Virus record (IMG/VR): IMGVR_UViG_3300046450_002329
Location: 1-21,094 of that record
Reading direction: 5' to 3' (one strand)
DNA from: a virus
Length of the DNA stretch: 21,094 nucleotides
Shown here one piece after another: positions 1,378 to 15,941 of this stretch. A program made the position numbers and the translations under genes. Within the stretch, counting starts at the first letter, position 1. The number at the start of each line of letters is the position of its first letter. The notes beneath the pieces were generated by a model. That model did not search any database. It was not told the DNA's origin and worked only from the letters and a program-made list of their open reading frames with translations.

Positions 1378-4300
1378 TTATTCCTCCATGTCTAGGGAAA
1401 CTGTTTGTCTTGATCCGGGGCCCCATTCTTTGCTAATCCCGATATCAGCTTGTATCCTTCTTGTTGCAAAAAGCTCATTCATCATTCTTTGTTGTTGATA
1501 AGGGTCTCCTGATTGAGCATCCTGCAGTCCCATCACTGCTTCATCAAGAAAGGGCTTGCTTCCTAAAGCTCTCAACTGTGTATCATAAAATCCATGGTCG
1601 TGCATGTCTTGTCCCGTTTCCAGTGCCATCTTCAATCTTATATCTTCTAGATCAACAGAGGGGTGCCAGCCTATCCAGTCAGGTCCAGGAAGATTAACAT
1701 CTGGTAGTAATTGCGTCCTTCTATACCAGTCAGGATAATTTTCTCCCGGATATTTGCTTTGCATAAAAAGCTGATAGAGTTCTGTTGTTTTTGGAAAACC
1801 CTCGTTTCTAGCATTCTCATTAGTCGAGTTTATCCTGTCAGAAGCTTCGTCAGATTGTAATGCGAATTCATTCATTCCATCTCTTGCTTTTTTCATATCC
1901 TGTGATTGATTTAATTTCCATCTAGCTAAGTAAAGCTCTCTCTGGTTCCTGGGGACAAGCTCTAGGATCCTTTTTCTTTTCTCTGGAGAGTCTGCCTCAG
2001 AGAATGCACGAAAGTAATCTCTATCCCTGGAAGGTAGCGCCCTGTAAATAGAAGAATCCTTTTGAGTGTAAGGATTCATCCCGAAAAGGGTTTCGTCTTT
2101 TTTCCTCTCAAAGATAGCTTGAGCTTCTGCATCTCTGTTTAGTTTAGCAATGTTTGAGAGTCTTGTATACTTTGCATATTTAAGCATATCGAAATACTCA
2201 TCCATGCCTCTAGTTTCTTCCTGGTGGCCGGGAATACCTTTCCAGCCTGCATAATTGTGGGCAAAACTAGTAATGTTTGGATAGATGAAATTATCAAATG
2301 GCTTGTTCCAGAAAGCTGACTTGGTGCCATAAACGTTTTCCCTTTCGTAGCTTTCGATTGAAGTCCTTCTGGGGTTAAATTTACTTTCAGGAGAGATCGG
2401 AAGCAGGTATTCGAAGGGAGACTGGAGGTGCAAGCCCCACTCTATTGCGCTTCCTATGGCCCCCAAGGGCCCTGTGGTTTCACTCCTTTGTGCTGCATTC
2501 AGCTTATTGATGCCAGCTAGAGTTAGAGAGGAGGACTCGGCTGCATACTTGTCCCCTTGCCCCATCAAGGAGTTTCTATATTCAGAGAACTCCCTGCCTT
2601 TCCTTTTTTCTTCAAGTTGCTCTAGGGTCGATTCGTATATGCTCAGGTCGAAAGAATTAAAACTATCTCTTTGCTTCTTTGCCTCTGCTGCTATCTTTTT
2701 AAATTCATGACTATTTGCAGCAACATCTGCGAGTATTTTAAATTTATGAATTAGTGGATAGTCTTCAGGATCTAGCCCCTCTAGCTCTGAAAATCTTGCA
2801 GCATAACCAACCCCAGGTAATCGATACTCACCTTCTGCTATCTTTGTATAAGGATCTCCTTCTTGAAAGTTTATCCCTCTAGATCCTGTTCCTGGTAGCC
2901 AGGATGCCATAGTGTTTTTAAGTGGGTTGTAGGTATCTCGATATTTTCTTTCACTTGGGAAAAGACGTCTATACGCCTCATTGGTCATACCCATGCCACC
3001 AAGATTCAGGTCATAAAAATCACGAGAAGCAGAGGTTACGTCTCGAAATGAGTCCATTGTTTTGTACTGGTCCATTACGCCCGGAGTTCCGGTTAGCTTG
3101 TCGATTCCGCTTTCAAGTGCATACCCCCAAAGGCCAGCTTGTTCTGTCATCTGATAGAACATGCTACTTAAGGATTGAGATGCGGAATAGGGGGATATGG
3201 CTTTACCCGGAGCTTCTCCGAGTTCTGTTGCGTAGGATTTTCCGTATCCCGGATCTTGAGCTTTTTGAAATTCACCATCTAGCCACTCTTCGTTGTGCAT
3301 AGTCATGACTGGTTTTATTAATCTACCAATTGTATTTGCCAATACTGGACCCACAAAGGCAACGTCTTCAAAAGGCAGAGAGGTTACAGGATAGGGCCGA
3401 TCATAAAAATGCTTCTGTTCCAGATTGTAAGTAAATTCCTTCTCAAAGAATTTTCTCAATGGCGACATATCGACATCTTCTTGCCACAAGGCTTTCTCTT
3501 TATACTTGGATTTCATTCTGGCAAAAGCATGCGGGCGATAGTACATGATATCATCCCCTTCATAAGAGCCTCTGCCGAATTCCCAAAAACGTCCTCTACG
3601 AACAGCTACCTCTTGCCTTCCTGCATATATGTCTTCAAGCTCTTCTGGTCTTTCGTCTGGAACTAAAATATCAAAAATAGAAGGAACTGCTGCCAACATT
3701 CCCCCAATAACTGCTGGCATAAATCCAGCAAGCTTTCCTACTGTTGCTCTTCCAAGGTTTATATTGGTAAAGGGAACCCTCAAGTCTAAAAGCTCGGCAG
3801 TCCCTGCATTTTCTGCAGGTGTTGTGAATGCTTTCCATAGTGCCGTGACGGCTCCTTTGGCTCCAAACTTTCCTTCATCGGTGTTCGCGTACCAACTACC
3901 AGGTCTAAAGGTTCCCCATTTTTCAAATTGTTTTCCAAGAAAATGACTATCTTCAAAATCGTGCTCGGTGTATCTCTTGGACAGGTCTGCCCTAGCTATA
4001 TTAAACTTTTCCCCCCAACTCTGATTTCCTGGAATTGAGCTTGCTCTTTTTACTGCCTGAAATCTTTCATACCCTCCAACAGAAAGACCTCCGAGCAACA
4101 TGCCTCCAAGCCCAAGCTTTGGTATGTTATACATATCAACAAGACCAGGAACCCACTCGTTTAGCCCATCCTGAAGGTCGTAAACATCACCAATTCCAGG
4201 CATCTCTAATGCATCGAGTACGTGTGCATAACCTAGGTGAGCTGCAACCCCTGCAGTGGCAATGGATTCTGTGATTCCAGTTCCAATGGTTTGCTCAACC

Positions 4301-5331
4301 ATCCAATCTAACTGATCATAGGCTAATGGAACTGCGGTTCCTATTACAGCTAGCTTCTTCCCTAGCTTCCAGGCTGTTCTGCCTGGGGTGGTTGCAGAGA
4401 CACCAAGACCCTTCCAATCCCCCTGAAAATACTTTCCAAGATATGGCATGTTGGCAAGCTTATCTGCCATCCATTTTGTTGCAGGCTGTTCGGTAAAATC
4501 CTCACTCAGCAGTCTATTGAATCGATAGATTCCAAATTCTGCTCCAATGGCCTTGGCTCTTCTCCAGTGGTATTGGAATTTGCTTTTTCCACCAATAAAC
4601 TGTATGGGCATCCCTGCGATTTGGGGGCTGATCGAATTGGGCATGGGATTGCCCGCTGGACTCGTTCCTGTGAAAGTCTTTTGGTTGAAAGAGGGAACGT
4701 TGTTTGATGCGCCTGGTAAATTCGATCTAACATAGGAATCACCGACAGTATTGCTGGCCCCCTCCTGCATTCGGATAACACCAGCATGCTGAACAAGGAT
4801 CTTTCCGTCATCAGCTGAGCCAAGATAGAGCTTCCCGTCCTTGAAGGTAACTCCCTTTTTCAGTATATCCTCTTGTCCGAAGATGTCTCTTGCTTTGCCG
4901 GTCTTGGCGTCAATACTGCTATCTTGAAGTCGGTGAATATAGTTGGCGGTTTTTCGATCACCTTGTTTAGCCAAGTCAAAAAACTGGCCCTTTTTGCTTG
5001 CTTCCTGAACGGTGGCTTCTCTGTGAGAAAGAATATTAGAAACCTGAAAAGTTCTACCCCAACGAAAAGGGAGAGCATAGTCTTCTACTGCCCTGGCTGC
5101 TTGAGTTGCTGTGTCCCAGAGAAAAGGGCTACTTCGCATTGCGGCATATGCGCCTCCCATGCCAGCCATTGCAGCTGCTCTAAAGCTATAGGAATGTGAC
5201 TCTTCAAAGCCAGACTCGTAGTCTCTGTCTGTCCAGACCTCTTCTTTATTTCCAAGACCCAGGGCTTTGCCGTAATATTTTCTACCTGTTTGGGGGTTTA
5301 ATAAAAAAGGCTGTGGTTCGTTGTCTGCCAC
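1378..5331 (-). CDS. Very large virion protein in tape-measure position (putative)
   Basis: A 1317-residue protein starting with GTG at 5331. The G is shared with the TAG stop of the upstream chaperone-like gene (TAGTG), so translation is probably coupled; no strong ribosome site is visible, and the next Met is at residue 55. It sits where the tape measure normally follows the chaperone genes, and its size would suit that role. The composition is unusual for one: it is rich in Tyr, Trp, Phe, Pro and charged residues, and I see no long heptad coiled coil. Hydrophobic or Gly/Ala-rich stretches lie near residues 51-65, 326-338, 350-372, 405-420 and 531-557. An aromatic segment at about 580-605 (RFWEFGRGSYEGDD, then YYRPHAFAR) resembles, from memory, a motif in large structural proteins of other phages. 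Options are a tape measure, an ejected internal protein or a large tail/baseplate component. I favour a virion protein that contacts membrane, but this is inference. Confidence 0.8.
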   Translation of the reverse strand: MADNEPQPFLLNPQTGRKYYGKALGLGNKEEVWTDRDYESGFEESHSYSFRAAAMAGMGGAYAAMRSSPFLWDTATQAARAVEDYALPFRWGRTFQVSNILSHREATVQEASKKGQFFDLAKQGDRKTANYIHRLQDSSIDAKTGKARDIFGQEDILKKGVTFKDGKLYLGSADDGKILVQHAGVIRMQEGASNTVGDSYVRSNLPGASNNVPSFNQKTFTGTSPAGNPMPNSISPQIAGMPIQFIGGKSKFQYHWRRAKAIGAEFGIYRFNRLLSEDFTEQPATKWMADKLANMPYLGKYFQGDWKGLGVSATTPGRTAWKLGKKLAVIGTAVPLAYDQLDWMVEQTIGTGITESIATAGVAAHLGYAHVLDALEMPGIGDVYDLQDGLNEWVPGLVDMYNIPKLGLGGMLLGGLSVGGYERFQAVKRASSIPGNQSWGEKFNIARADLSKRYTEHDFEDSHFLGKQFEKWGTFRPGSWYANTDEGKFGAKGAVTALWKAFTTPAENAGTAELLDLRVPFTNINLGRATVGKLAGFMPAVIGGMLAAVPSIFDILVPDERPEELEDIYAGRQEVAVRRGRFWEFGRGSYEGDDIMYYRPHAFARMKSKYKEKALWQEDVDMSPLRKFFEKEFTYNLEQKHFYDRPYPVTSLPFEDVAFVGPVLANTIGRLIKPVMTMHNEEWLDGEFQKAQDPGYGKSYATELGEAPGKAISPYSASQSLSSMFYQMTEQAGLWGYALESGIDKLTGTPGVMDQYKTMDSFRDVTSASRDFYDLNLGGMGMTNEAYRRLFPSERKYRDTYNPLKNTMASWLPGTGSRGINFQEGDPYTKIAEGEYRLPGVGYAARFSELEGLDPEDYPLIHKFKILADVAANSHEFKKIAAEAKKQRDSFNSFDLSIYESTLEQLEEKRKGREFSEYRNSLMGQGDKYAAESSSLTLAGINKLNAAQRSETTGPLGAIGSAIEWGLHLQSPFEYLLPISPESKFNPRRTSIESYERENVYGTKSAFWNKPFDNFIYPNITSFAHNYAGWKGIPGHQEETRGMDEYFDMLKYAKYTRLSNIAKLNRDAEAQAIFERKKDETLFGMNPYTQKDSSIYRALPSRDRDYFRAFSEADSPEKRKRILELVPRNQRELYLARWKLNQSQDMKKARDGMNEFALQSDEASDRINSTNENARNEGFPKTTELYQLFMQSKYPGENYPDWYRRTQLLPDVNLPGPDWIGWHPSVDLEDIRLKMALETGQDMHDHGFYDTQLRALGSKPFLDEAVMGLQDAQSGDPYQQQRMMNELFATRRIQADIGISKEWGPGSRQTVSLDMEE

Positions 5332-6281
5332 TACTTTCGTTTCTTAGAACGACTTCTCTTAAATACGTCAGCGTAGTGTTCTTCCATGGCTATTCCGGCT
5401 TGTTTCTGTCTAGAATGCTGTCCTGCAACCTTTGCCTTGTTCGCTTCTTCACGTTTTTGAGCCTCTGCCAATCTATCCTCTGGAGTCTTGATATCTAACT
5501 CTTTTCCTTCTTCCATCTGTTTCATGTAGTCTGCATAAATAATATTCGCATCTTTAGTCATCTGGTCGATACTAATACCTTCGTCTTCTTTTTCGTGACC
5601 AACCATATCGGTAGCTGAAGCCCTTATGTCAGACTGAGTTATGATCGTATCTGTTTCGTTGCGTCGTGGGGGCACAGGAGCTGATTTCCTTTCTGTTGGC
5701 TTTTCTAAGCCTTGTTCTTCTAGGTACTCCATGTACAGGTCCATAGCTCCCTTCTTATTCTCTTTGGGGGCTTCTTGCTTTTGTTTCTCGGGATCTTCAA
5801 AATTAATTCTGTTTTGTAGGATTCCAAGGTCCATGAGCTTTTGCTCTGCTTGCGCCAATCTCAGCATAAAATCTGCATACTTTAGCTTGTAGATGTCTTC
5901 TGGCTTGTAGGCTGGAAATGCCTGAGATATTAGAATCATTGTCTGGTGGATTGCCTGTGTCGCTACAATCCGAAATCCGTTTAATGCATAATTTAAGCTA
6001 TCAATAGAAACTGGTCCCGAATTCTCAATGATATCTCTTACAACAGTAGTGACCGTCCCCGCCTTTAGTACGGGGAGGTCATCGACTATAAACTCATCTA
6101 ATACGCATTTTTGAAAAATCTCATCTTCTATTGTTGCCCTGGCATAGGATTGGCCCTCAAGAAGGGCTGAGTACTCTATGAACTCGCCGATATCAAGTTG
6201 TTTCCATGGGATAACAACTCCATTTTCAAGCGTAGTTATGAATACTGATCCGTATTTTCTTCTCAAAGAGGCCAGATTCAT
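5331..6281 (-). CDS. Tail assembly chaperone-like protein, long form
   Basis: A 316-residue protein starting with ATG at 6281. The AGGAG ribosome site overlaps the TAG stop of the upstream 149-residue gene (TTTAGGAGCTACCATG). Residues 6-90 are visibly related to the upstream protein: both have a K/R-x-G-x-[VI]F start, an E-x-x-x-QKC[VL]L block (here residues 54-61) and a KAG[TS][VL]TT block (here 73-79). Residues 91-155 add a helical region rich in hydrophobics. From about 160 onward it is highly charged and probably disordered, ending in a strongly basic tail (KRSRSKKRK). Lying between the tube genes and the giant gene at 1378-5331, it matches the position of the tail assembly chaperones (lambda G/GT type) that coat the tape measure during tube assembly. 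The role is inferred from position and architecture. The next gene starts on the last base of its stop codon. Confidence 0.7.
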   Translation of the reverse strand: MNLASLRRKYGSVFITTLENGVVIPWKQLDIGEFIEYSALLEGQSYARATIEDEIFQKCVLDEFIVDDLPVLKAGTVTTVVRDIIENSGPVSIDSLNYALNGFRIVATQAIHQTMILISQAFPAYKPEDIYKLKYADFMLRLAQAEQKLMDLGILQNRINFEDPEKQKQEAPKENKKGAMDLYMEYLEEQGLEKPTERKSAPVPPRRNETDTIITQSDIRASATDMVGHEKEDEGISIDQMTKDANIIYADYMKQMEEGKELDIKTPEDRLAEAQKREEANKAKVAGQHSRQKQAGIAMEEHYADVFKRSRSKKRK

Positions 6282-6289
6282 GGTAGCTC

Positions 6290-6739
6290 CTAAAGTTTAA
6301 CACACAAAGCTGCCGCCATTTGGGGGTTTATAAAATTAGAGTTTTGCATGATTTGCTCATTAAGGGTTGTGAGGCTTCCTGCTTTATGCTCAAGGGAGGT
6401 CTCTGCCTTTGGGGAACTCCACAATAGGCACTTTTGAACAACTTGTTCTTCTAATTCAAAATTGCTAACAGGCTGATTGGAGGCCTGAACATGCTCTTGC
6501 AAGGCTACGAATTCTTTTCTATTGATTGGTCTCCAAACAATAAGTTCTTCTTCTGAAAAGCCAGAACAAAAAATCTCTCCATGTCTCTGCTTCCACTGGT
6601 CAATCTTTACATTTGATGGGGAATCTGGGAACTCCGATAGTAGTTGCGCAAGGCTTGCGCTTGCTTCGGATGTCTGCCCTCCCGCATTATCTAGCTCATC
6701 TGTATTCTCTGTATTCTCAACGGTTTGTTCTTCTGTCAT
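6290..6739 (-). CDS. Tail assembly chaperone-like protein, short paralogue
   Basis: A 149-residue protein starting with ATG at 6739 after a clear AAAGGAG (spacing 5). Residues 1-45 are acidic, Ser/Thr-rich and probably disordered. Residues 49-136 align by eye with the N-terminal domain of the next gene: WKQRHGEIF matches LRRKYGSVF, LEEQVVQKCLL matches IEDEIFQKCVL, and HKAGSLTTLNEQIMQNS matches LKAGTVTTVVRDIIENS. The protein stops shortly after the shared domain and lacks the extension of the longer paralogue. It therefore resembles the short G-type product of a chaperone pair, encoded by its own gene. The end of this gene has no obvious slippery heptamer leading into the downstream frame, and the downstream gene has its own ribosome site. 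A TAG stop lies 8 bases before the next start. Confidence 0.65.
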   Translation of the reverse strand: MTEEQTVENTENTDELDNAGGQTSEASASLAQLLSEFPDSPSNVKIDQWKQRHGEIFCSGFSEEELIVWRPINRKEFVALQEHVQASNQPVSNFELEEQVVQKCLLWSSPKAETSLEHKAGSLTTLNEQIMQNSNFINPQMAAALCVKL

Positions 6740-6769
6740 AACCGCTCCTTTCTTAAGTAATTTGTAATA

Positions 6770-7486
6770 TTATATAACATTTTTAGCATAAAAAGAATAG
6801 ACTTCTTGTACTGGATTTTCGTCAATGACAAGTGTTTGTGCTTTGCCAGTCAAGTGAACCCCTTCTATTTTATGTATGGTTTGCGAATCCGACCCTTCGT
6901 GTCCAAATTTTAAATATATATCAAAACCATTTAAGGCTTTTCTGTCGACTCTTCTCTTGTCCGTAAGCTCTTCACTTACCTGATCTGTTCCTGTTTCTGG
7001 ACCCCAAATGAGATCATTTAAAACACCTGAATTTGTAGGTGTTCCAAATTCTCTAGAGGCCGCAATTTGAGCTGCGTACTTCTCCATCAGGGCTGCGATC
7101 TCCTGTGTTGGTGGATCTAGATCAATTCCGTCAGAAACTGCAGATAGCTCTGTCTTCAATTGCTGCAATTTTGCCTTGTACCTCTCTTCTTGGGTTTCAA
7201 GGATAGAGACTGCATTATTCGGATGGAGATTGTATCCCCTTACATGATTCAAAACAGACCAAAGATAGCCAGCTTCTACAAAGTTAATACTGAAGCTACC
7301 TTGAACAATGATCGTCCCAGATGCCATCTCGTCAAAAAACTGAGAAGCATAACCGTATATAGGAACCTTTGACTGCTGAACAGTCCATTGGAGACTAGTG
7401 ATTTCGTCAATTAAAACATTCTCTATATATACTGAAGATTGCGCCCCACTATAGTAATCTAGATTATATTCAAATTTGTTTAGCAT
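6770..7486 (-). CDS. Tail tube-family protein, third paralogue
   Basis: A 238-residue protein whose ATG directly follows the TAG of the upstream tube paralogue (TAGATG), with an AGGAG placed inside that gene's last Arg codons. It has the beta-rich pattern of T4 gp19-like tube proteins. The N-terminal part carries YSGAQSSVYIENVLIDE, then a strand-rich run at about residues 32-75 with the region VPIYGY and a GTIIVQGSFSINF strand. The C-terminal part (from about 185) has FDIYLKFG, then IHKIEGVHLTGK, and ends with VYSFYAKNVI. A helical, charged insertion occupies about residues 93-145. It is the most divergent of three adjacent tube-like genes and may be a tube initiator or terminator or a baseplate-hub tube protein rather than the main tube subunit; this is inferred from divergence and order. 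The gene ends with TAA at 6770 and is followed by a 30-base AT-rich gap. Confidence 0.7.
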   Translation of the reverse strand: MLNKFEYNLDYYSGAQSSVYIENVLIDEITSLQWTVQQSKVPIYGYASQFFDEMASGTIIVQGSFSINFVEAGYLWSVLNHVRGYNLHPNNAVSILETQEERYKAKLQQLKTELSAVSDGIDLDPPTQEIAALMEKYAAQIAASREFGTPTNSGVLNDLIWGPETGTDQVSEELTDKRRVDRKALNGFDIYLKFGHEGSDSQTIHKIEGVHLTGKAQTLVIDENPVQEVYSFYAKNVI

Positions 7487-8317
7487 CTAGAATCTCCTTC
7501 TCAAATTTACAGAATCAAGCCAGCTAGAATAGGATTCATAGTTCGTCTTAAAGATATCACTGGCCTTTAAATCCCTAGATCCTTTTTTACCATCCCTGTA
7601 CGCTAGGTCCTTTATGTTTGCCATTGGATCCATGTCCAGGGCAACAAATTGAATAACCTCTTCTATTAGTAAGTCTTCGATGCTCAGTGTTTTTCCGTGG
7701 TTTAAAAACTCGACACCATATAGGGCCATCCTTGAAATGCTACCGTATTCGTTTTGAAATAAGAAAGTCAAGTCAACCGGAAGTAACTGATCTGGCAATA
7801 TGGAAGAACGGATATCTGATGTGTTATAAGCATTACTCAACATATCCTCCATTTGCTTGCATAACTTTCTTAGGGATTGCTGGTCAAGTACCGTAAAGAT
7901 CATTGAGCCTGCAATAGTTCTTGGGCCTCTTGTATAGCCTCTAACATGCGAATTCCCTAAAGACCTAACAGGACTTTTGGGTCTATGCGCCTGACAGGAG
8001 ATTGTCTGTACAGTGCCTAATTCGAAAGCAAAATTACTTAAGTTCTCTCTACTTGCGGGGAGACCGTTTAATATTGTTTGATTCTCTACTGTGTCTTTTA
8101 AGAACCAACGAGACAGGCTTCCGAAATTCAATGTTGCTATGACACTGATATCTGCCCCAGAATAACTAGAGTTAGCAAACTTGGGCTTTTCTGCCCAGCT
8201 ACCAGAAGCTATACCAAGAGTCTCGTCATCTTCATTGCGTGAGGAATCTTCATCTCCCCAGCTACCAGAAGCCCCACCACCGCCAAAGCTTCCGCCCCCG
8301 CCTGAAAATAACGCCAT
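7487..8317 (-). CDS. Tail tube-family protein, second paralogue with Gly-rich N-terminus
   Basis: A 276-residue protein starting with ATG at 8317 after AAGGAG (spacing 7). The first 45 residues are low-complexity Gly/Ser/Asp and contain ASGSW twice, 21 codons apart. From about residue 52 it follows the tube-fold pattern shared with its neighbour: YSGADISVIATLNFG, then the VRGYTRGPRTIAGSMIF block, then DQLLPVDLTFLFQNEYG and YGVEFLNHGKTLSIEDL. The upstream paralogue has matching blocks (YSRGKRGIAGTLIFLMF, DQVLPFDVTLAAANEYG, YGCEILNEGYGVSIDDI). The C-terminal 40 residues are an extra charged tail (RDGKKGSRDLKASD region) not seen in the other two. Neighbours and homology support a virion tube or tube-junction protein. 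The Gly-rich head could be a flexible linker or surface-exposed arm. A perfect 13-bp hairpin precedes the gene. Confidence 0.75.
   Translation of the reverse strand: MALFSGGGGSFGGGGASGSWGDEDSSRNEDDETLGIASGSWAEKPKFANSSYSGADISVIATLNFGSLSRWFLKDTVENQTILNGLPASRENLSNFAFELGTVQTISCQAHRPKSPVRSLGNSHVRGYTRGPRTIAGSMIFTVLDQQSLRKLCKQMEDMLSNAYNTSDIRSSILPDQLLPVDLTFLFQNEYGSISRMALYGVEFLNHGKTLSIEDLLIEEVIQFVALDMDPMANIKDLAYRDGKKGSRDLKASDIFKTNYESYSSWLDSVNLRRRF
8194..8272. repeat. 16-bp direct repeat, 63-bp period, in tube paralogue 2
   Basis: CCCAGCTACCAGAAGC occurs exactly at 8194-8209 and 8257-8272. The 63-base spacing is 21 codons, so the repeat is in frame and encodes the two ASGSW copies in the low-complexity N-terminus of the second tube paralogue. 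It looks like a remnant of an in-frame tandem duplication. Confidence 0.85.
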
Positions 8318-8382: not shown

Positions 8383-9087
8383 TTAGCCGGTGATATTCGG
8401 TGCCGCAGTGCCACTAGTGGACTGTCCCTCACTTATCCTGTTGATTGCTCTCCATGGAGATAGTGTTCTGGCAACATAACTCATTTGCTGCTCAGAGACA
8501 ATATCATCAATGGATACGCCATAACCCTCATTCAGGATTTCACAACCATAAATTCTCATGATTGCTAATGCTCCATACTCATTTGCTGCCGCTAAAGTGA
8601 CATCAAATGGAAGAACCTGGTCAGAGAAAAAAGCCTCTTGTGCCTGGGCTAGGCTCGAAATCGACTCTGATCCGACATCAGTGTCCGGTGTGCCTTCTGA
8701 TCCCGCAATGGGAACTGTTCCCAGTGTGCTAGCAAGGGTCGCAGCGTCCAGACCACTGTCTGAAAGAGAAACCTCATCAGGATCTAAAAATGGTTTATAC
8801 TCTGCGGAAATATCGGAGTTGCTAATTTCTCCAAAATGTCCTAAAAAGGCATGTCTATCAAACATCAAGAAAATCAATGTTCCTGCAATACCTCTCTTTC
8901 CACGAGAATACGATCTTGGATCAGCAGACCCCATCGTATAAAGTGGTGCCTTCTCTCTACTAATAGAGTAGGAGATTGCTTGCAGTTCTCCGATAATAGT
9001 ACTACCGAATACTGCCTTAATATCTACACCTGAAAAGCTGTTAAAGCCTTGCATTTGTGGGCTTCCTGCCCCTCTAATTACACTCAT
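8383..9087 (-). CDS. Tail tube protein (probable major subunit)
   Basis: A 234-residue protein starting with ATG at 9087 behind a strong AGGAGG (AGGAGGTTATTATG), 12 bases after the sheath stop. In myoviruses the main tube gene normally lies directly after the sheath gene, which is the situation here. Recognisable blocks are FSGVDIKAVFG (about residues 19-29), YSRGKRGIAGTLIFLMF (about 59-75), LPFDVTLAAANEYG (about 159-172) and IYGCEILNEGYGVSIDDI (about 178-195). Between the two halves is an acidic, Ser/Gly-rich insertion of about 60 residues (roughly 88-148) that could project from the tube or contact the sheath. The strong ribosome site fits a protein made in many copies. It lacks the extra termini of the downstream paralogue. 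Calling this one the major tube subunit is inference from order and compactness; the family call is firmer. Confidence 0.8.
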   Translation of the reverse strand: MSVIRGAGSPQMQGFNSFSGVDIKAVFGSTIIGELQAISYSISREKAPLYTMGSADPRSYSRGKRGIAGTLIFLMFDRHAFLGHFGEISNSDISAEYKPFLDPDEVSLSDSGLDAATLASTLGTVPIAGSEGTPDTDVGSESISSLAQAQEAFFSDQVLPFDVTLAAANEYGALAIMRIYGCEILNEGYGVSIDDIVSEQQMSYVARTLSPWRAINRISEGQSTSGTAAPNITG

Positions 9088-9099
9088 AATAACCTCCTA

Positions 9100-11010
9100 T
9101 TAAGTTGCGGAAAGACCGACAACCACTGTAATTTGACGTAATTCAAAAGCTGGGACAATTTTCAATTGAACAATTGCCTGCCCCAGAATTTTCATTTGTG
9201 GCGTAACAACTACCTGATGTTGGTAGTTAGAAATTGCCCCAGTCTGGACTAAAGACTGAAGTGCTCCCTTAACTGCCGTATCAAGTGCTGCAATTTGAGC
9301 CCCTGTCATTCCCTCACCGAGGAAGGGCTCTCCCACTCGACGAATGCCATCTACACATGCTTCAACTTGTCTGATTGTTGATATTCTTGTGTAGTCGCTT
9401 GCTGGAGTCGCTGCAGTTGGTGAATCAGAAATTACAGTTTTTGTAGCTTTTCTGTTTAGACCAACAACTCTTTGTCCTGCAAGAAGATCCAATTTATGAG
9501 CAGTAATTGAGCCCAAAAGGGTTCCAACTCCTAGCTCTTTATTTGTTGGAGCGCTTTGAACTGGCAAGAAGCCACCGCATGCAAATCCTGCATAAGCTGC
9601 CGCCATGTTGCAATTGTACTGACCGCCAGATCCACTAAAGGTGATCCAGGAAGCAGTAACACTTATGTACTTACCAATATCAATCTTCTTTTTATTAGTA
9701 TCAAGTTTTTCTGCAGTATCCAGATAACCTCTTCTACTGGTTGTTTCTTCATCTGAAGCAAAGAAACCACCAGCTCCTTTATAATCTGCAGTTCCTTTAA
9801 AGCCAGGAAGACTACCAAATTGTTTCCGACCAGAAAGAAATTTATTGCCAAGGATTCCAGTGCCATTCGCTGTTACCGCTCCATCTGCATCAAAAGTAGG
9901 TAAAGTTCCAACCCACTTAGCTTCAATAGCAGCAGAACCCCAACGGATACATTCTTTGACTCCAATAAAGCCAAGTCTTGTATCAACAATTGTGCTGCCT
10001 CTATGACAGAACTCAGCAAGCTGATAAGCAAAGTTAACTTCGTGGAAGTCTGTATAGACCAAAGACTCTGTGTTGATAATATTGTATCTGTCTTCGCTAT
10101 TACTGGCTCCGTCAAGATAGTGATAATCTATGGTTAAGCCAGCAGTGTTATCCGTTGTAAGCTTATTCAAGGCATCATCAAGTGACAGCTCAGCAGCGTC
10201 AGCGGGTAATCTTTTGTAAGCATACATGAAAAAATCAGCAGTGCCCGGATGGATATAGTAATCCCCGACCTTGGTTAATTGTCCAAGTGAAGACACTTGC
10301 GAAAGAACCACATCATAGCCACCATTTAGATGGTTTGCATCCCCTCCGTTAAATGTGGTTACCATATTGCCGAAAGCGATTGCGTTGTTGTAAGCAATGC
10401 TTGTATTGGCAAGTGCAGCAAACCTGATAATTCCAGTTGCTCCAGTATAGCCCGTCGCAACCAGTGCTTCAGTTGGAACATTGGTTGCCCCGTTGTCTCC
10501 AGGGAAGGCGCTTCCAACTGAAGTTAGGTCCACGGGGTCGGCTGGAAACCACCAAGCCGGTCTCAATTCTCCGTTTACTTCTCTTACTGCGAACCTACCA
10601 AGTGGCTCAACAGCTCTTGCTGCGCCATCCATGACGTTAAGATCATCAAGATAGACACCTGCAGGCACGACCACATCTATATTCTGATCATACATAAAAG
10701 CATACGCTTCGTGCATGTTTTCATAAATAGTTCTAAGGTTATCATCAGGGTGGCCGACTCGCCAAAGTACCCAATTAGATGCACCACCTCTTGCGCTTTC
10801 TTCTAAAGCAGGGATAAGTGTTCCCTCTGTACCAAATAAAGCTCTTGCGTCTCCTACGCTAGCTACCGTATACGGATAACTAACATTCAATGGTTCTTCT
10901 ACTGAAGTTCCGAGAATCAAAAACTTAGGGGCTCCAGAATCAGGATAGACGTTCAAATTTCCGTCTAAAAGTTCTGAAAAGATCCCAGGTAAATTATTAT
11001 AAATTGCCAT
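9100..11010 (-). CDS. Contractile tail sheath protein
   Basis: A 636-residue protein starting with ATG at 11010, 9 bases after a perfect AGGAGG. Length and both ends fit the phage tail sheath family. The N-terminal half has the SVGDARALFG segment near residue 52 and the strand VVVPAGVYLDD near residue 113. The C-terminal part has the conserved helix and strands of the sheath domain: GEPFLGEGMTGAQIAALDT, then YQHQVVVTPQMKILGQAIV, and finally VPAFELRQITVVVGL. The middle of the protein (roughly 170-400) is a longer variable region, as is common for surface-exposed sheath domains. Sheath subunits form the outer tail cylinder that contracts to drive the tube through the host envelope; this is family knowledge. 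The next gene downstream is the probable tube gene, the usual sheath-tube order. Confidence 0.93.
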   Translation of the reverse strand: MAIYNNLPGIFSELLDGNLNVYPDSGAPKFLILGTSVEEPLNVSYPYTVASVGDARALFGTEGTLIPALEESARGGASNWVLWRVGHPDDNLRTIYENMHEAYAFMYDQNIDVVVPAGVYLDDLNVMDGAARAVEPLGRFAVREVNGELRPAWWFPADPVDLTSVGSAFPGDNGATNVPTEALVATGYTGATGIIRFAALANTSIAYNNAIAFGNMVTTFNGGDANHLNGGYDVVLSQVSSLGQLTKVGDYYIHPGTADFFMYAYKRLPADAAELSLDDALNKLTTDNTAGLTIDYHYLDGASNSEDRYNIINTESLVYTDFHEVNFAYQLAEFCHRGSTIVDTRLGFIGVKECIRWGSAAIEAKWVGTLPTFDADGAVTANGTGILGNKFLSGRKQFGSLPGFKGTADYKGAGGFFASDEETTSRRGYLDTAEKLDTNKKKIDIGKYISVTASWITFSGSGGQYNCNMAAAYAGFACGGFLPVQSAPTNKELGVGTLLGSITAHKLDLLAGQRVVGLNRKATKTVISDSPTAATPASDYTRISTIRQVEACVDGIRRVGEPFLGEGMTGAQIAALDTAVKGALQSLVQTGAISNYQHQVVVTPQMKILGQAIVQLKIVPAFELRQITVVVGLSAT

Positions 11011-11039: not shown

Positions 11040-11744
11040 TTACTCTACATCCAATCTAATTAAGATTTCTTCAAGTTTTTTCTCCTCGAATTTTCGTAAT
11101 TTTTCTGTTCTTACAAAATAATCCAGAGGACGACCATACCATTTGTTTCCGTCGTCATCGACTGTTTGGTCTTCTCCTCTGCCCCAAAAAAGCACTCTAG
11201 ACATACCCTGTAATCGAAACCACCAAGTATAATCTTCCATAAAGTCCTCGAACCAACGAGCCCTTTCGTTAGCTTGCTTGTTGGTTCTACACCAGCAGGT
11301 AAAACGAATTAAATTGTCATACCAGTATCCAGTTATATTAAATCTATAATCTGGGTTAGCAGGATCCTTACCGCTCTCCCTAATAACAGGTCTCATGTTC
11401 TTTACTTCCCCATCAAAGGGGGCTCCCTGGCTAAAAGCTCCAGGTTCACGTCTCATCAATCTAAAGGAGATCACCTCTGTGTCGTCTTTTGCATCAGGGT
11501 CTTCTTCTGTGAAGTTGATGTAATTTCTCAAAGCTATTTCTTGTCTCGATTGATAATCAATCAGCGCTCTGTTCACCAAGTCGTAAAACTCCTTTAGGTT
11601 CTTTGAGTAGCCAACCGTTCTGCTCCTGCCAAGATCAATAGTGCTGTCCATCTGTAGCTCATAGGCCATTTCAACAGTAATTCCTATGTTGCTTTTTTTC
11701 AGCTCATCACTTAAGAGATCTTCTAAAATACTACTATCAGACAT
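11040..11744 (-). CDS. Tail completion / tail terminator-like protein (putative)
   Basis: A 234-residue protein whose ATG shares a base with the TAA stop of the upstream gene (TAATG). No good ribosome site is visible, so it probably depends on translational coupling. The N-terminal third is helical; the C-terminal half is aromatic, with RFTCWCRTNKQANERARWF (around residues 143-161), then DYTWWFRLQG and a YGRPLDYFVRTEKLRKFEEK region near the end. It sits between the head-closure candidate and the sheath. That is where myoviruses usually encode the protein that caps the tail tube and provides the tail side of the head-tail joint, so I infer tail completion. I do not recognise a family by sequence with certainty. 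After the TAA stop there is a 29-base gap before the sheath start that carries the sheath ribosome site. Confidence 0.6.
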   Translation of the reverse strand: MSDSSILEDLLSDELKKSNIGITVEMAYELQMDSTIDLGRSRTVGYSKNLKEFYDLVNRALIDYQSRQEIALRNYINFTEEDPDAKDDTEVISFRLMRREPGAFSQGAPFDGEVKNMRPVIRESGKDPANPDYRFNITGYWYDNLIRFTCWCRTNKQANERARWFEDFMEDYTWWFRLQGMSRVLFWGRGEDQTVDDDGNKWYGRPLDYFVRTEKLRKFEEKKLEEILIRLDVE

Positions 11745-12268
11745 TAATATACACCATTAAGGAACTTGTAAGCTTTCTCATGACAATCCAGCTTCCAATA
11801 TTCCAGCCTTCCGTTATCGGCTCTGTAATCTATTGCTTCGTTAATTTTAAATCGAGCTTTTCTCGTTATAGGAGTTTGAATTTCTCCCTCTTCTGTTAAG
11901 ACAAGTTCGATGATTCGATCTTTGGTTGTTATATCCACAGAGGATATGCAGTAAAAAACCATAATAGGGGCACCGTAAATAAGCTTATTTCTTTGGTCAA
12001 CCTTGTATATGTCGATATATGTTTCATCCCAAAGGTAGCCTTCACTGTGACAGACTGGGCAAAAAATATCCACATCTGGTTCATCCGTAACAGAGTCAAC
12101 ACAGGGACATTTAACAAGCTTGCTGTTTGCATCAAATCTCATTTTTCTAAACAAGGCTTTTTGAGCCTTGGAGATCTCTGGGTAATGTCCCTTAAATGTG
12201 TTTTCTAACTCTTTCCTTATATTCGGTTCGGTTGAACCACTTAAGGGGTACAGTGGCCTATTGGACAT
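11744..12268 (-). CDS. Head closure-like protein with CxC/CxxC metal-binding pattern (putative)
   Basis: I place the start at the ATG at 12268, which overlaps the upstream stop by one base (TAATG) and gives 174 residues. An in-frame GTG at 12277 would add three residues but lies inside the upstream gene and lacks support. A GAGGTGG sits about 7 bases before the ATG. The protein has four cysteines in a compact pattern, C54-x-C56 and C70-x-x-C73 (FCPVCHSEGY), which looks like a zinc knuckle. The second half is beta-rich (IMVFYCISSVDITTKDRI, then KARFKINEAIDYR). Small beta-rich proteins between the adaptor and tail-completion genes are typically head-closure (stopper) proteins, and some carry such cysteine pairs; this is from memory. 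Start, coupling and cysteines are seen; the role is inferred from position. The last base of the stop starts the next gene. Confidence 0.65.
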   Translation of the reverse strand: MSNRPLYPLSGSTEPNIRKELENTFKGHYPEISKAQKALFRKMRFDANSKLVKCPCVDSVTDEPDVDIFCPVCHSEGYLWDETYIDIYKVDQRNKLIYGAPIMVFYCISSVDITTKDRIIELVLTEEGEIQTPITRKARFKINEAIDYRADNGRLEYWKLDCHEKAYKFLNGVY

Positions 12269-13239
12269 TACCACCACCTCTTCTTATAGGTTTTTAAACT
12301 TCTTCTTCCGGTGATGGTTTGCTTGGATGAGTTTGCTGATGGGTTCTTGTTTACTCCGGTGCCTTCCCACATTCTATCAAATGTTGGCTTGTCTGGATCA
12401 AGGGATCCTTTAACAACCATTTTTGGGTTTCGAATAGCCTTGGCTCCTCCACCAGCCATTAGCTGGTCTCCCCATTTTCGCATCATTTCTTGCAAATATT
12501 CAAGTGTGTTCTTATGTGCTTCAGTATCATAGGTGACAGATAGGTCTCCTAGTGTTTTCGACTTCAATAGAGTTCCACCGACATTGCTTACGAGCCTGAA
12601 AGCAGAGGCTGCAGTTACATACTCTCTTCTTGCATGATTATATAGCTCAGAGTTTACCTCTGTAAGCGAGAAGCTAAGGGCATCCGCCTCTATGCTTGCT
12701 TCCAGTATGGCCATTGCGCTAGTTAGGTCTTTTATTTCTGTGACTAAGCTGCCCACCTCAAGACCAACTTTATTTGTGCTTGTGTAGTAAGGTGAGAGCG
12801 TCGTAAAGAATTCTATTTCTATTGGGCTGGAAAATGTCTCTCCTGTTGTTGATGCGATTCCAGGAAGCAGTGTTACCGTAACGAGGTTATTGTTAAAAAC
12901 CTGAGGGCCTTCAAATGATACAACCTCGGAGGCTCCTACCTCAACAGTGAAAGCAAGTGTAGTAGTTAATCCAGCTTGACAAGGAAGATCTCCTGTCCAC
13001 TTGTCGGTCCATTCCCCAACAGGGGTGCATGCGGTAGTGTATTGATGTTCATACACGCCCTCACCAAGATAAACCGGAGTAAATCCTGCCGGGTCTACAG
13101 CATTCGCATTATCTGAAGTATCAGCTCCTGGCTGAAAAAGGAACACCTTTACGTTTTGAGCTTCAGAGGGTTTGCCCAAGTCGTCTTTAAACTGAATACG
13201 AAGGCCTATGATGCCTCCAGCACTGATGGTTCTCGCCAC
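12268..13239 (-). CDS. Ig-like domain fused to head-tail adaptor-like domain
   Basis: A 323-residue protein starting with GTG at 13239, supported by AGGAG six bases upstream and by no competing ATG. Residues 1-102 look like one beta-sandwich (Ig-like or related): VKVFLFQPG, a GVYEHQYTT strand near 61-69 and a GEWTDKWTGD turn near 75-84. Residues about 145-262 are helical and look like an adaptor of the gp6/gp15 type: SPYYTSTNKVGLEVG, then a helix with ASIEADALSF (181-190), NHARREYVTAASAFRL (201-216), KSKTLGDLSVTYD (226-238) and a final helix ending KWGDQL. The C-terminus is basic and ends KKRWW. The adaptor would bind the portal and receive the head-closure protein, which is the next gene. 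The helical pattern fits this well, but the family assignment is by eye. The stop overlaps the next ATG. Confidence 0.65.
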   Translation of the reverse strand: MARTISAGGIIGLRIQFKDDLGKPSEAQNVKVFLFQPGADTSDNANAVDPAGFTPVYLGEGVYEHQYTTACTPVGEWTDKWTGDLPCQAGLTTTLAFTVEVGASEVVSFEGPQVFNNNLVTVTLLPGIASTTGETFSSPIEIEFFTTLSPYYTSTNKVGLEVGSLVTEIKDLTSAMAILEASIEADALSFSLTEVNSELYNHARREYVTAASAFRLVSNVGGTLLKSKTLGDLSVTYDTEAHKNTLEYLQEMMRKWGDQLMAGGGAKAIRNPKMVVKGSLDPDKPTFDRMWEGTGVNKNPSANSSKQTITGRRSLKTYKKRWW

Positions 13240-13245
13240 AAGAAT

Positions 13246-13250
13246 CTCCT
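13246..13250 (-). promoter_or_regulatory. Ribosome binding site that fixes a GTG start
   Basis: AGGAG on the minus strand lies six bases before the GTG at 13239. It is the reason for choosing this GTG as the start of the Ig/adaptor gene, since no ATG lies nearby in that frame. Confidence 0.8.
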
Positions 13251-13290
13251 ATAAATCAAATATTCATTTTTCTAATCTGTTTTACAGAAG

Positions 13291-14076
13291 TTAGATTTTT
13301 ATTGTTAGTGTTTTTCCGCTAACAATAAGCTGCTTGGCAAGTTTGCCTTTAGCTGTTCCTACGAGATTCGGATGATCCGAAGCAATTGAGGTCTGCACTA
13401 TTACACTGTCCTGAGTCACTGTGGTAGCGTCTAGGTCCTTATCAAAGTTAATTACTATTTGAGATAAGTCAGAGGCGTTGTTGATACTAAAGTCCACAGG
13501 ATTTGAAGACAAAACAGTCATGCCTGTCGCAGTTGAAACTGCAGCAGTGCCGGGCGTTAGACCCGTAGAGAGGACAGAAGAAGAGATAGATGCAGGGAGC
13601 TGCACGATCGCACCAGAGCCACTCTCAAAGGAGAAACCTACATACCCAGGCCAAGCGGTCCCTAGAGCATCAAGGGTTTCTGTAACGTGTACAGAGTAGG
13701 TTAGCAGGGGGTACAGCGGCTGAGTGGGGGTGAATAAAAGTTTTGTTCTTGCCTCTGCATTAGTAGCGAGGACTTCATTGCCGTTGGTGTCGACAATCTT
13801 AAATTCAAAACTTCCCTGAAGAATCCCTCGGTAACCTGGAGATTTTAAAAAATTCTCTAAATCACCTTGGGAAATATTCGCGGGATCTTTTAGTTCCATT
13901 AGACCTGGGCCAATCCACTGATCGGTATCAGGTCCTTCGATAAAGAAATCTTCCTTAAGTCTGCCAGTATCCATTACTCTATCGAATGTCATAGAGACAA
14001 CAGATGCGAGTGGAATACCCACATCCCCATTTGCTGGGAAATAATCTGTTATAATCTCTGAGAGTATTGTAGGCAT
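13291..14076 (-). CDS. Ig-like (Big_5-type) domain protein of the virion
   Basis: A 261-residue protein starting with ATG at 14076, five bases after the upstream TAG; a weak AAGGAA lies in the preceding codons. Two Big_5-like units can be read. The first (about 10-150) has FPANGDVGIPLASVVSMTFD and ends with FTPTQPLYPLLTYSVHVTET, the usual last strand followed by the D-x-x-G turn. The second begins near residue 190 (SSNPVDFSI, then LSQIVINFDKDLDATTV) and stops at GKTLTIKI, just before the final strand would be expected, so it looks C-terminally shortened. A Ser/Thr/Ala-rich linker (about 155-190) separates them. Such domains are common on phage heads, necks and tails, where they decorate the particle or bind host-surface sugars. 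Placement between capsid and adaptor genes suggests a neck or head-surface protein; that is inference. A 51-base gap follows, holding a weak hairpin and the next ribosome site. Confidence 0.7.
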   Translation of the reverse strand: MPTILSEIITDYFPANGDVGIPLASVVSMTFDRVMDTGRLKEDFFIEGPDTDQWIGPGLMELKDPANISQGDLENFLKSPGYRGILQGSFEFKIVDTNGNEVLATNAEARTKLLFTPTQPLYPLLTYSVHVTETLDALGTAWPGYVGFSFESGSGAIVQLPASISSSVLSTGLTPGTAAVSTATGMTVLSSNPVDFSINNASDLSQIVINFDKDLDATTVTQDSVIVQTSIASDHPNLVGTAKGKLAKQLIVSGKTLTIKI

Positions 14077-14695: not shown

Positions 14696-14732
14696 TCTGT
14701 TTCTAATCTAACAAGTTAGACTAAAGAACAGA
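14696..14732 (-). other. Nested inverted repeat at the capsid gene 3' end
   Basis: An outer 6-bp pair (tctgtt 14696-14701 with aacaga 14727-14732) encloses an inner 5-bp pair (tctaa 14707-14711 with ttaga 14716-14720). The outer arm overlaps the last capsid codons. The stems are AT-rich and weak, and no T tract follows. It may be an mRNA 3'-end structure in front of the terminator, or chance in AT-rich DNA. Confidence 0.3.
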
Positions 14733-15941
14733 ATCTAAAGCACCAATGGGCCCAATGTTAGTAACTGTAGCCTGTGCAGGTAACACAATTTCATTAGGTA
14801 CAACATGAACGTTTTTCAACGTTGCAATAGCCTTGCCCTCATTTAAGATGCCAATACCATACCGCTCACGGAGCTTAATCTTGCGAATATCTACACGCGG
14901 ATCATCAAATTCCTCAGTGGTTACTTCTTCATCTACGATGAGAACACCGAGTTCAGCTGAATCAAACATATAAATGTCAGTAAGCTTACGTCTAGGATCA
15001 TAAGGTACAAATGGGCTAACGATAATCCTAAAAGGAATATTCATATAGCCGGGTAGCTGAGGTGCAGAGCTAAGCGTCTGGGGATAGGCGCTTAGGGGAC
15101 TAGCTGCTGCTCCTGCTGCATTTCCACCGGGAGTGATGTCTTGTCCTGCAGACATACCGAGACCACCTTGAGAACTATTGTCCCATGGGGCTCTTTCTGC
15201 AGGATTACCAGACCAGCTGGCAAACATATTCCCGCCATTGTTACCTAAGACAAAGGAACGTAAGGTGGCATCCTTTACGAACATCGTCCAAGTTAATGGA
15301 TGCATCAATAAGGTATTCGGAGTAAAACCCTGAGTAATAACTTGAGCATAAGCATCAAAGATATCATCCATGGTTACCGAACCGTTACCAGTACCAGCCA
15401 TATCTCGGCCAGTGGTAACACCTTTAAGTGATGAAGCTGGGTTAACGTTGTCGAAACAAGTTACACCCATACTACGAATGAAGTTAAAAATCTTAACTTC
15501 TTTATGACGAGCTAATGCCCGACCAGCTGCACGGAGATGCATACCGATTACATCAAATTGAGAATAACGAATCATTTCGTCAGTGACCTTAACGGCAACA
15601 CCTGATTTCCCAATACTAGCTGTAACGGTAGCTCCACCCATCTGGAGGCTACGCTCTGGATATTCTTGACCTTCCGCAATGTCAGCAGCCACCATGGCTC
15701 CAACAGCTGGGAAAGTAATTGTTTGTCCATAAGAATAATTAATTCTTTGGAGTAGGCTTGTGCCTACTAATAGAGGCTCTGCTGCTTCCTTTACGATATT
15801 GCTAATAACCTTAGGCATTAACATTGGCGCATTGGGGACCGAGAGAGCGTCATTTAATTTTACACGCTGGCCATTTTCGAGATTTCCGTTATTTTTCCAG
15901 AGATACTCAAATTGTTTTGCGTCTTTGATTTCAATTGTCAT
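14721..15941 (-). CDS. Major capsid protein (HK97 fold)
   Basis: A 406-residue protein starting with ATG at 15941, 9 bases after TAAGGAGG, an excellent ribosome site that overlaps the upstream stop. The layout is that of an HK97-fold capsid: an N-terminal arm, a hydrophobic strand region (GQTITFPAVGAMVAADIAEG, about 73-92), a long helix region (DVIGMHLRAAGRALARHKEV, about 129-148), the segment TPNTLLMHPLTWTMF (about 207-221), and a C-terminal half with IPFRIIVSPFVPYDPRRK and the RERYGIGILNEGKAIA strand. It lies downstream of the protease and is followed by a strong terminator, as suits a very abundant product. Arginine codons are mostly CGN here (14 of 18 by my count), whereas the sheath gene uses mostly AGA/AGG. 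Whether the N-terminus is cleaved by the protease cannot be read from sequence. Confidence 0.92.
   Translation of the reverse strand: MTIEIKDAKQFEYLWKNNGNLENGQRVKLNDALSVPNAPMLMPKVISNIVKEAAEPLLVGTSLLQRINYSYGQTITFPAVGAMVAADIAEGQEYPERSLQMGGATVTASIGKSGVAVKVTDEMIRYSQFDVIGMHLRAAGRALARHKEVKIFNFIRSMGVTCFDNVNPASSLKGVTTGRDMAGTGNGSVTMDDIFDAYAQVITQGFTPNTLLMHPLTWTMFVKDATLRSFVLGNNGGNMFASWSGNPAERAPWDNSSQGGLGMSAGQDITPGGNAAGAAASPLSAYPQTLSSAPQLPGYMNIPFRIIVSPFVPYDPRRKLTDIYMFDSAELGVLIVDEEVTTEEFDDPRVDIRKIKLRERYGIGILNEGKAIATLKNVHVVPNEIVLPAQATVTNIGPIGALDSVL

Follow-up and report, generated by a model that had tools for sequence, protein, structure and literature searches.

Neighbouring genes for putative short and long tail assembly chaperones in phages related to 0305phi8-36

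We describe two neighbouring phage genes, one short (S) and one long (L), that share a domain of common origin. They are very probably paralogous tail chaperone genes, carried by a large phage with a contractile tail that belongs to the 0305phi8-36 lineage; a single duplication is their simplest origin, and initiation may set the ratio of their products. Few recoding events of tailed phages are as widely conserved as the frameshifting of the tail chaperone gene. The chaperones of T4-like phages, likewise presented as an exception, are reportedly made by a mechanism other than frameshifting (so, it is said, Vladimirov, Gautam and Davidson in 2022). The short and long forms of phage lambda, G and GT, share a domain and are encoded before the tape measure gene (PMC5009743, PMC2147016). 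There, both forms come from one gene through a -1 frameshift, whereas the DNA analysed here has two genes with separate starts; the frame geometry and the heptamers of that DNA contradict a lambda-type origin of the long form through a programmed shift within the short gene.

The closest precedent is a two-gene tail chaperonin of the Bacillus thuringiensis phage 0305phi8-36, gp143/gp144, which was described as recapitulating G/GT without a frameshift (Hardies, Thomas and Serwer 2007, PMC2147016). In that paper, the two genes are neighbours that share a domain and lie one gene ahead of the tape measure gene, and no frameshift was found between them. The paper gives orf144 no recognisable ribosome site, whereas L has an AGGAG, and gives gp143 an extra N-terminal domain, where S has a short acidic tail of low predicted confidence. 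Since the two-gene form has been in print since 2007, the pair described here is correctly read but already known in kind. What is new is its breadth across relatives, the non-conserved junction, the weaker ribosome sites of L, a C-terminal signature of S, and a single-duplication history as the simplest reading.

Gene layout in the window

The window, by which we mean the whole stretch of DNA analysed, is the complete 21,094-base virus record, itself a fragment, and all of its main genes lie on the minus strand. The lengths, coordinates, strand and separate ATG starts of S and L are as the original prediction had given them. The features used below are as follows.

14721-15941, minus strand: major capsid protein
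9100-11010, minus strand: tail sheath, upstream of the tube genes
6770-7486, 7487-8317 and 8383-9087, minus strand: three tail-tube-like genes that precede the S/L pair
6745-6750, minus strand: ribosome site of S, AAGGAG, 5 bases ahead of the start
6290-6739, minus strand: S (ORF149), 149 aa, starting with ATG; a putative short tail assembly chaperone by family profile and fold
6317-6613, minus strand: domain shared with L, S residues 43-141 (hhalign)
6323-6329, minus strand: AAACCCC, a heptamer of the X XXY YYZ type in the S frame, not conserved and at chance frequency
6297-6299, minus strand: TAA that precedes the L ATG in its own frame and blocks a -1 shift from S to L
6293-6298, minus strand: the Lys-Leu with which S ends; this free C-terminus is conserved among S proteins
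6287-6291, minus strand: ribosome site of L, AGGAG, 5 bases ahead of the ATG and overlapping the S stop codon (6290-6292)
5331-6281, minus strand: L (ORF316), 316 aa, a putative long tail assembly chaperone whose ATG lies 8 nt past the S stop
5997-6278, minus strand: domain shared with S, L residues 2-95 (hhalign)
5826-6005, minus strand: helical extension present only in L, residues 93-152, from model and alignment, conserved in the L family
5337-5483, minus strand: long predicted C-terminal helix of L, residues 267-315, from model and alignment, found in the subgroup of L proteins to which that of the window belongs
1378-5331, minus strand: 1317-aa protein (ORF1317), whose GTG start overlaps the L stop (TAGTG)

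The pair thus lies between the tube genes and ORF1317; past the latter begins another long gene, which is cut by the end of the window at base 1. Judged by sheath and tube, the closest annotated phages are Moorella MTATph1, Bacillus KLEB27-3 and Acinetobacter ME3, all three of which have the same gene order. Many virion genes of ME3 were annotated through homology to 0305phi8-36, among them ME3_35, annotated as homologous to YP_001429636.1 of that phage, which ORF1317 matches with 25.5% identity over 831 residues (E 7e-58). Likewise, the S homologue of ME3, ME3_33 (34.5% over 110 to the S of the window), carries the annotation "putative tail chaperonin" and similarity to YP_001429634.1 of 0305phi8-36. 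The comparison of the window with gp143/gp144 runs through this annotation and homology and through the BFVD models described below. The window shows these features of the 0305phi8-36 type: adjacent genes, a shared domain, an extension after that domain in one of the two, no frameshift joining them by X XXY YYZ motifs and frame geometry, and a place between the tube genes and the gp145/tape measure genes, judged by the tubes upstream and by the match of ORF1317 to ME3_35 downstream.

Two annotations of the tube-like genes deserve mention. All three paralogues match phrog_9206, labelled "major head protein", and their kin are annotated as "tail tube" in KLEB27-3 and as "major head protein" in MTATph1; the head label looks wrong for these genes. 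In MTATph1 (12868-13497), CDS0020 seems to begin earlier than its annotated start at 13018, because an open frame with homology to the N-terminus of the tube protein reaches back to about 12868.

The shared domain and its predicted fold

The original prediction held that S and L share a domain and that L alone carries an extension, and both parts are borne out. BLASTP aligns the two proteins with 23% identity over 86 residues (E 1e-07); the score of 35.4 bits was reached by none of 2000 shuffles of L, the shuffled maximum being 28.9. Profile-profile alignment of the two families, which had been proposed as a check, gives 99.6% probability and E 1.1e-24 over 92 columns in hhalign. Computation therefore shows that the two domains, of about 90 residues, are of common origin. 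The further helical extension is found only in L.

Structure prediction, proposed alongside, agrees with this. AlphaFold2 models were built from 40 sequences for S and 39 for L, and their mean pLDDT values are 86.3 and 87.8; the two domains fold alike in them, with the same predicted topology of helix, strand, strand and then helices, and pLDDT averages about 88 to 98 per block. In the L model the domain is followed by a confident helical part (residues 93-152), a loose stretch and the long C-terminal helix, the relative placing of which is not reliable given a pTM of 0.51. The S model has its acidic tail, short and of low confidence. Among solved folds, the S model best matches the unnamed 3fgx (Z 8.6), YqbN (3klu, 6.4) and the HK97 chaperone (2ob9, 6.1), with the next match at 4.1, and the L model matches 3fgx (10.8), 3klu (5.7) and 2ob9 (4.9); these Z values are moderate, and those of 5-8 may reflect merely a common arrangement. 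Among viral models (BFVD), S matches A7KUR7 and L matches A7KUR8, adjacent accessions that we take to be proteins of phage 0305phi8-36. Past the near kin come several named tail assembly chaperones with weak E values (0.02 and up), as well as phage G gp181 (E 0.22), which PMC8570332 gives as a member of a frameshifting pair.

By sequence, the pair has no name. No Phage_TAC family matched the S or L of the window above the curated Pfam cut-off, and PHROGs and Pfam returned no named chaperone family for them. Although the predicted fold resembles the HK97 chaperone and the YqbN type (YqbN being of the XkdN type, PF08890), neither protein of the window matches these in sequence; PF08890 weakly matches two of 42 L proteins (best E 0.023). 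Sequence searches of solved structures with the pair gave unrelated proteins only, up to E 1.

This namelessness would suit S and L being other small tail proteins with a chaperone-like fold, for example a tube-end or baseplate component. We consider that very unlikely in view of the fold matches to known chaperones, the position of the genes and the acidic charge of the products (-13 for S and -9 for L), and because PMC2147016 singles out orfs 143/144 of 0305phi8-36 as the sole genes close to those of the tape measure that are not structure genes. The assignment of S and L as probable tail assembly chaperones rests on predicted fold, gene position and kin.

The junction between S and L in related loci

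Relatives were found through sheath and tube searches, a search of the phage collection with L having yielded only chance-level matches (best E 0.3) and a viral scan by sheath alone a single weak locus. The survey covers 93 loci: 80 virus contigs (80 of 209 tube matches), eight genome contigs, the window itself with its nearest relative (L001), and the three annotated phages. Exactly one S and one L stand side by side in 69 of them, as sorted by profiles that were trained in rounds on these same loci; one other has S at the contig end, and 23 have neither. In 17 of these 23, less than 2 kb of sequence lies past the tube match. The remaining six are L015, L039, L076, L090, L091 and L093. One of them (L076) has its pair further along in its record, and L015 and L039 contain large inserted genes, with no S/L match in their short records. 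For L090 and L093, no tail module was seen in the ORF listing, and the sequence is host-like; these two are Acidobacteria contigs with single tube-like genes, which an integrated phage of the lineage may have left behind. A search of 32 full records found two S/L matches in 24, one in six and none in two, and never more than two; in the six records with one match, L was found in the locus by the L profile. Two further observations were made by eye. Homing-endonuclease-like ORFs lie between S and L (11152-11862) and just before S (9434-10204) in one locus, L081, and an extra tube-like ORF lies between S and L in another (L059, 10157-10576). Three near copies (L073, L074 and L079) were kept among the 62 distinct pairs of the junction analysis and left out of the tree, the Shine-Dalgarno comparison and the C-terminus counts.

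The original prediction stated that the junction has no evident slippery heptamer. Strictly, this does not hold, as AAACCCC is present in the S frame (A AAC CCC), 30 bases ahead of the S stop, and is the sole X XXY YYZ motif in the last 60 bases of S. The motif is not conserved, occurs at chance level and leads into a stop. Relative to S, L occupies the -1 frame, which opens only at 6296. A -1 shift at AAACCCC would run into the TAA at 6297-6299 before reaching the L ATG (6281), so S cannot be joined to L by this route. The motif is absent at the matching place in the nearest relative, and the TAA together with this lack of conservation rules out a -1 frameshift at 6323-6329.

The related loci were examined for a frameshifting version by means of X XXY YYZ motifs and frame geometry, and neither a conserved phase nor a conserved heptamer was found in the 62 pairs. 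The phase of L relative to S is 0, +1 and -1 in 21, 14 and 27 pairs, respectively; the two frames do not overlap in 27 pairs and have some open-frame overlap in 35. Of the 23 pairs that overlap in the -1 phase, not one contains a usable X XXY YYZ motif, and heptamers of this type occur in the last 60 bases of S in five of the 62 pairs, compared with 4.9 +- 2.0 expected from codon shuffles. A programmed shift retains both phase and signal, and the S/L family retains neither. For the chaperone locus of the Vandenendeviridae, by contrast, the -1 frame is given as open in all 56 alleles (PMC12846349).

A low-frequency frameshift, hop or stop readthrough that yields an S-L fusion beside the separate proteins could draw on the one X XXY YYZ motif in the S frame of the window, on the 35 pairs with open overlapping frames, and on the 21 same-phase pairs, which readthrough could fuse if no other stop intervened. 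The unconserved phase, the 27 pairs lacking overlap, the lack of a usable X XXY YYZ motif in the 23 overlapping -1 pairs, the chance-level heptamer count, the TAA that closes the -1 route in the window, and an S C-terminus conserved up to its last residue (see below) make such a fusion extremely improbable.

Initiation at L, the end of S and the history of the pair

Separate ribosome sites had been claimed for the two genes of the window, and both are there, AAGGAG for S and AGGAG for L, each 5 bases from its start. In 51 of 59 pairs, L starts between 5 bases before and 20 after the S stop, and in 10 of the 59 its start overlaps that stop by one base (TAATG type). Among 52 close pairs, median Shine-Dalgarno binding is weaker for L (-5.0 kcal/mol) than for S (-8.7; p 7e-05 with kinship ignored), the starts having been picked by rule; an alternative rule, taking the best candidate site, gave the same direction. 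For reference, the median anti-Shine-Dalgarno binding is -2.7 at 455 internal start codons and -9.95 at 48 tube genes. The L site is the weaker one in 37 of the 52 pairs. As it is the stronger one in 14, and as the S site also looks weak in six, weak initiation at L is no rule. In the window itself the L site is fair (-6.5 against -8.4 for S), and in its nearest relative L is essentially without a site (+1.6). The weaker L sites of the family agree with the remark of Hardies et al. on orf144, but they are variable. Indirectly, they support a ratio of S to L set by translation initiation.

The C-terminus of S is conserved. In 36 of 59 distinct pairs S ends in [KR]L-stop, and Leu is the last residue in 51. 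These ends use all six Leu codons and 20 different 9-mers including the stop, and the [KR]L end is also present where L is far away; selection therefore appears to act on the free end of the S protein. The same end is found in none of 495 other ORFs (called mechanically, at least 250 aa) and in five of 847 ORFs at 200 aa, a set that includes non-genes. [KR]L-stop is thus a signature of the short form. No chaperone C-terminal motif was found in print among open-licence PubMed Central papers.

The history of the pair was read from a tree of 118 domains over 93 columns, which is weak whichever way it is taken. The free quick tree needs four changes of S/L label, and in it S and L of MTATph1 lie close together; these two are 42% identical, compared with 36% between the S proteins of MTATph1 and KLEB27-3. 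Since S and L are closer there than S and S, a later gene conversion or second duplication is possible in that phage. As an account of the whole family, repeated renewal of the pair by more than one duplication or by gene conversion is rather unlikely: a tree with S as one clade has a log-likelihood 9.96 above that of the free quick tree and is not rejected (p-AU 0.657), and the profiles assign a single S ORF and a single L ORF to each of the 69 loci. As the tree with all S together is not rejected, it fits a single ancient duplication; most simply, the genes duplicated once, before the lineage spread. That S and L are two genes from a duplication, with no frameshift, as the core of the original prediction had it, is supported by homology, predicted fold, junction survey, position and tree; that the duplication replaced an ancestral frameshift, also proposed there, is possible.

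By analogy with lambda, the shared domain would let many S molecules coat the tape measure protein, and fewer L molecules would join the same coat by means of their own copy of it; the extension found only in L would bring in the tube protein, and both S and L would leave as the tube grows. Translation of S would start at a strong site, and that of L just past the S stop, at a site that is usually weaker and often by reinitiation. A more tentative proposal, which we think possible though doubtful, is that the free C-terminus of S is a docking tail, that L keeps the tube-recruiting extension and is often made through reinitiation only, and that the junction sets the ratio. If so, S and L would have become real specialists once freed from a shared frame, and the junction would govern how reliably full-length tails are made.

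A lineage that does without the frameshift shows that conservation attaches to the requirement for two forms at some ratio rather than to frameshifting as such. Separate genes also allow S or L to be deleted, mistimed or re-ratioed singly, which a frameshifting gene permits less cleanly.
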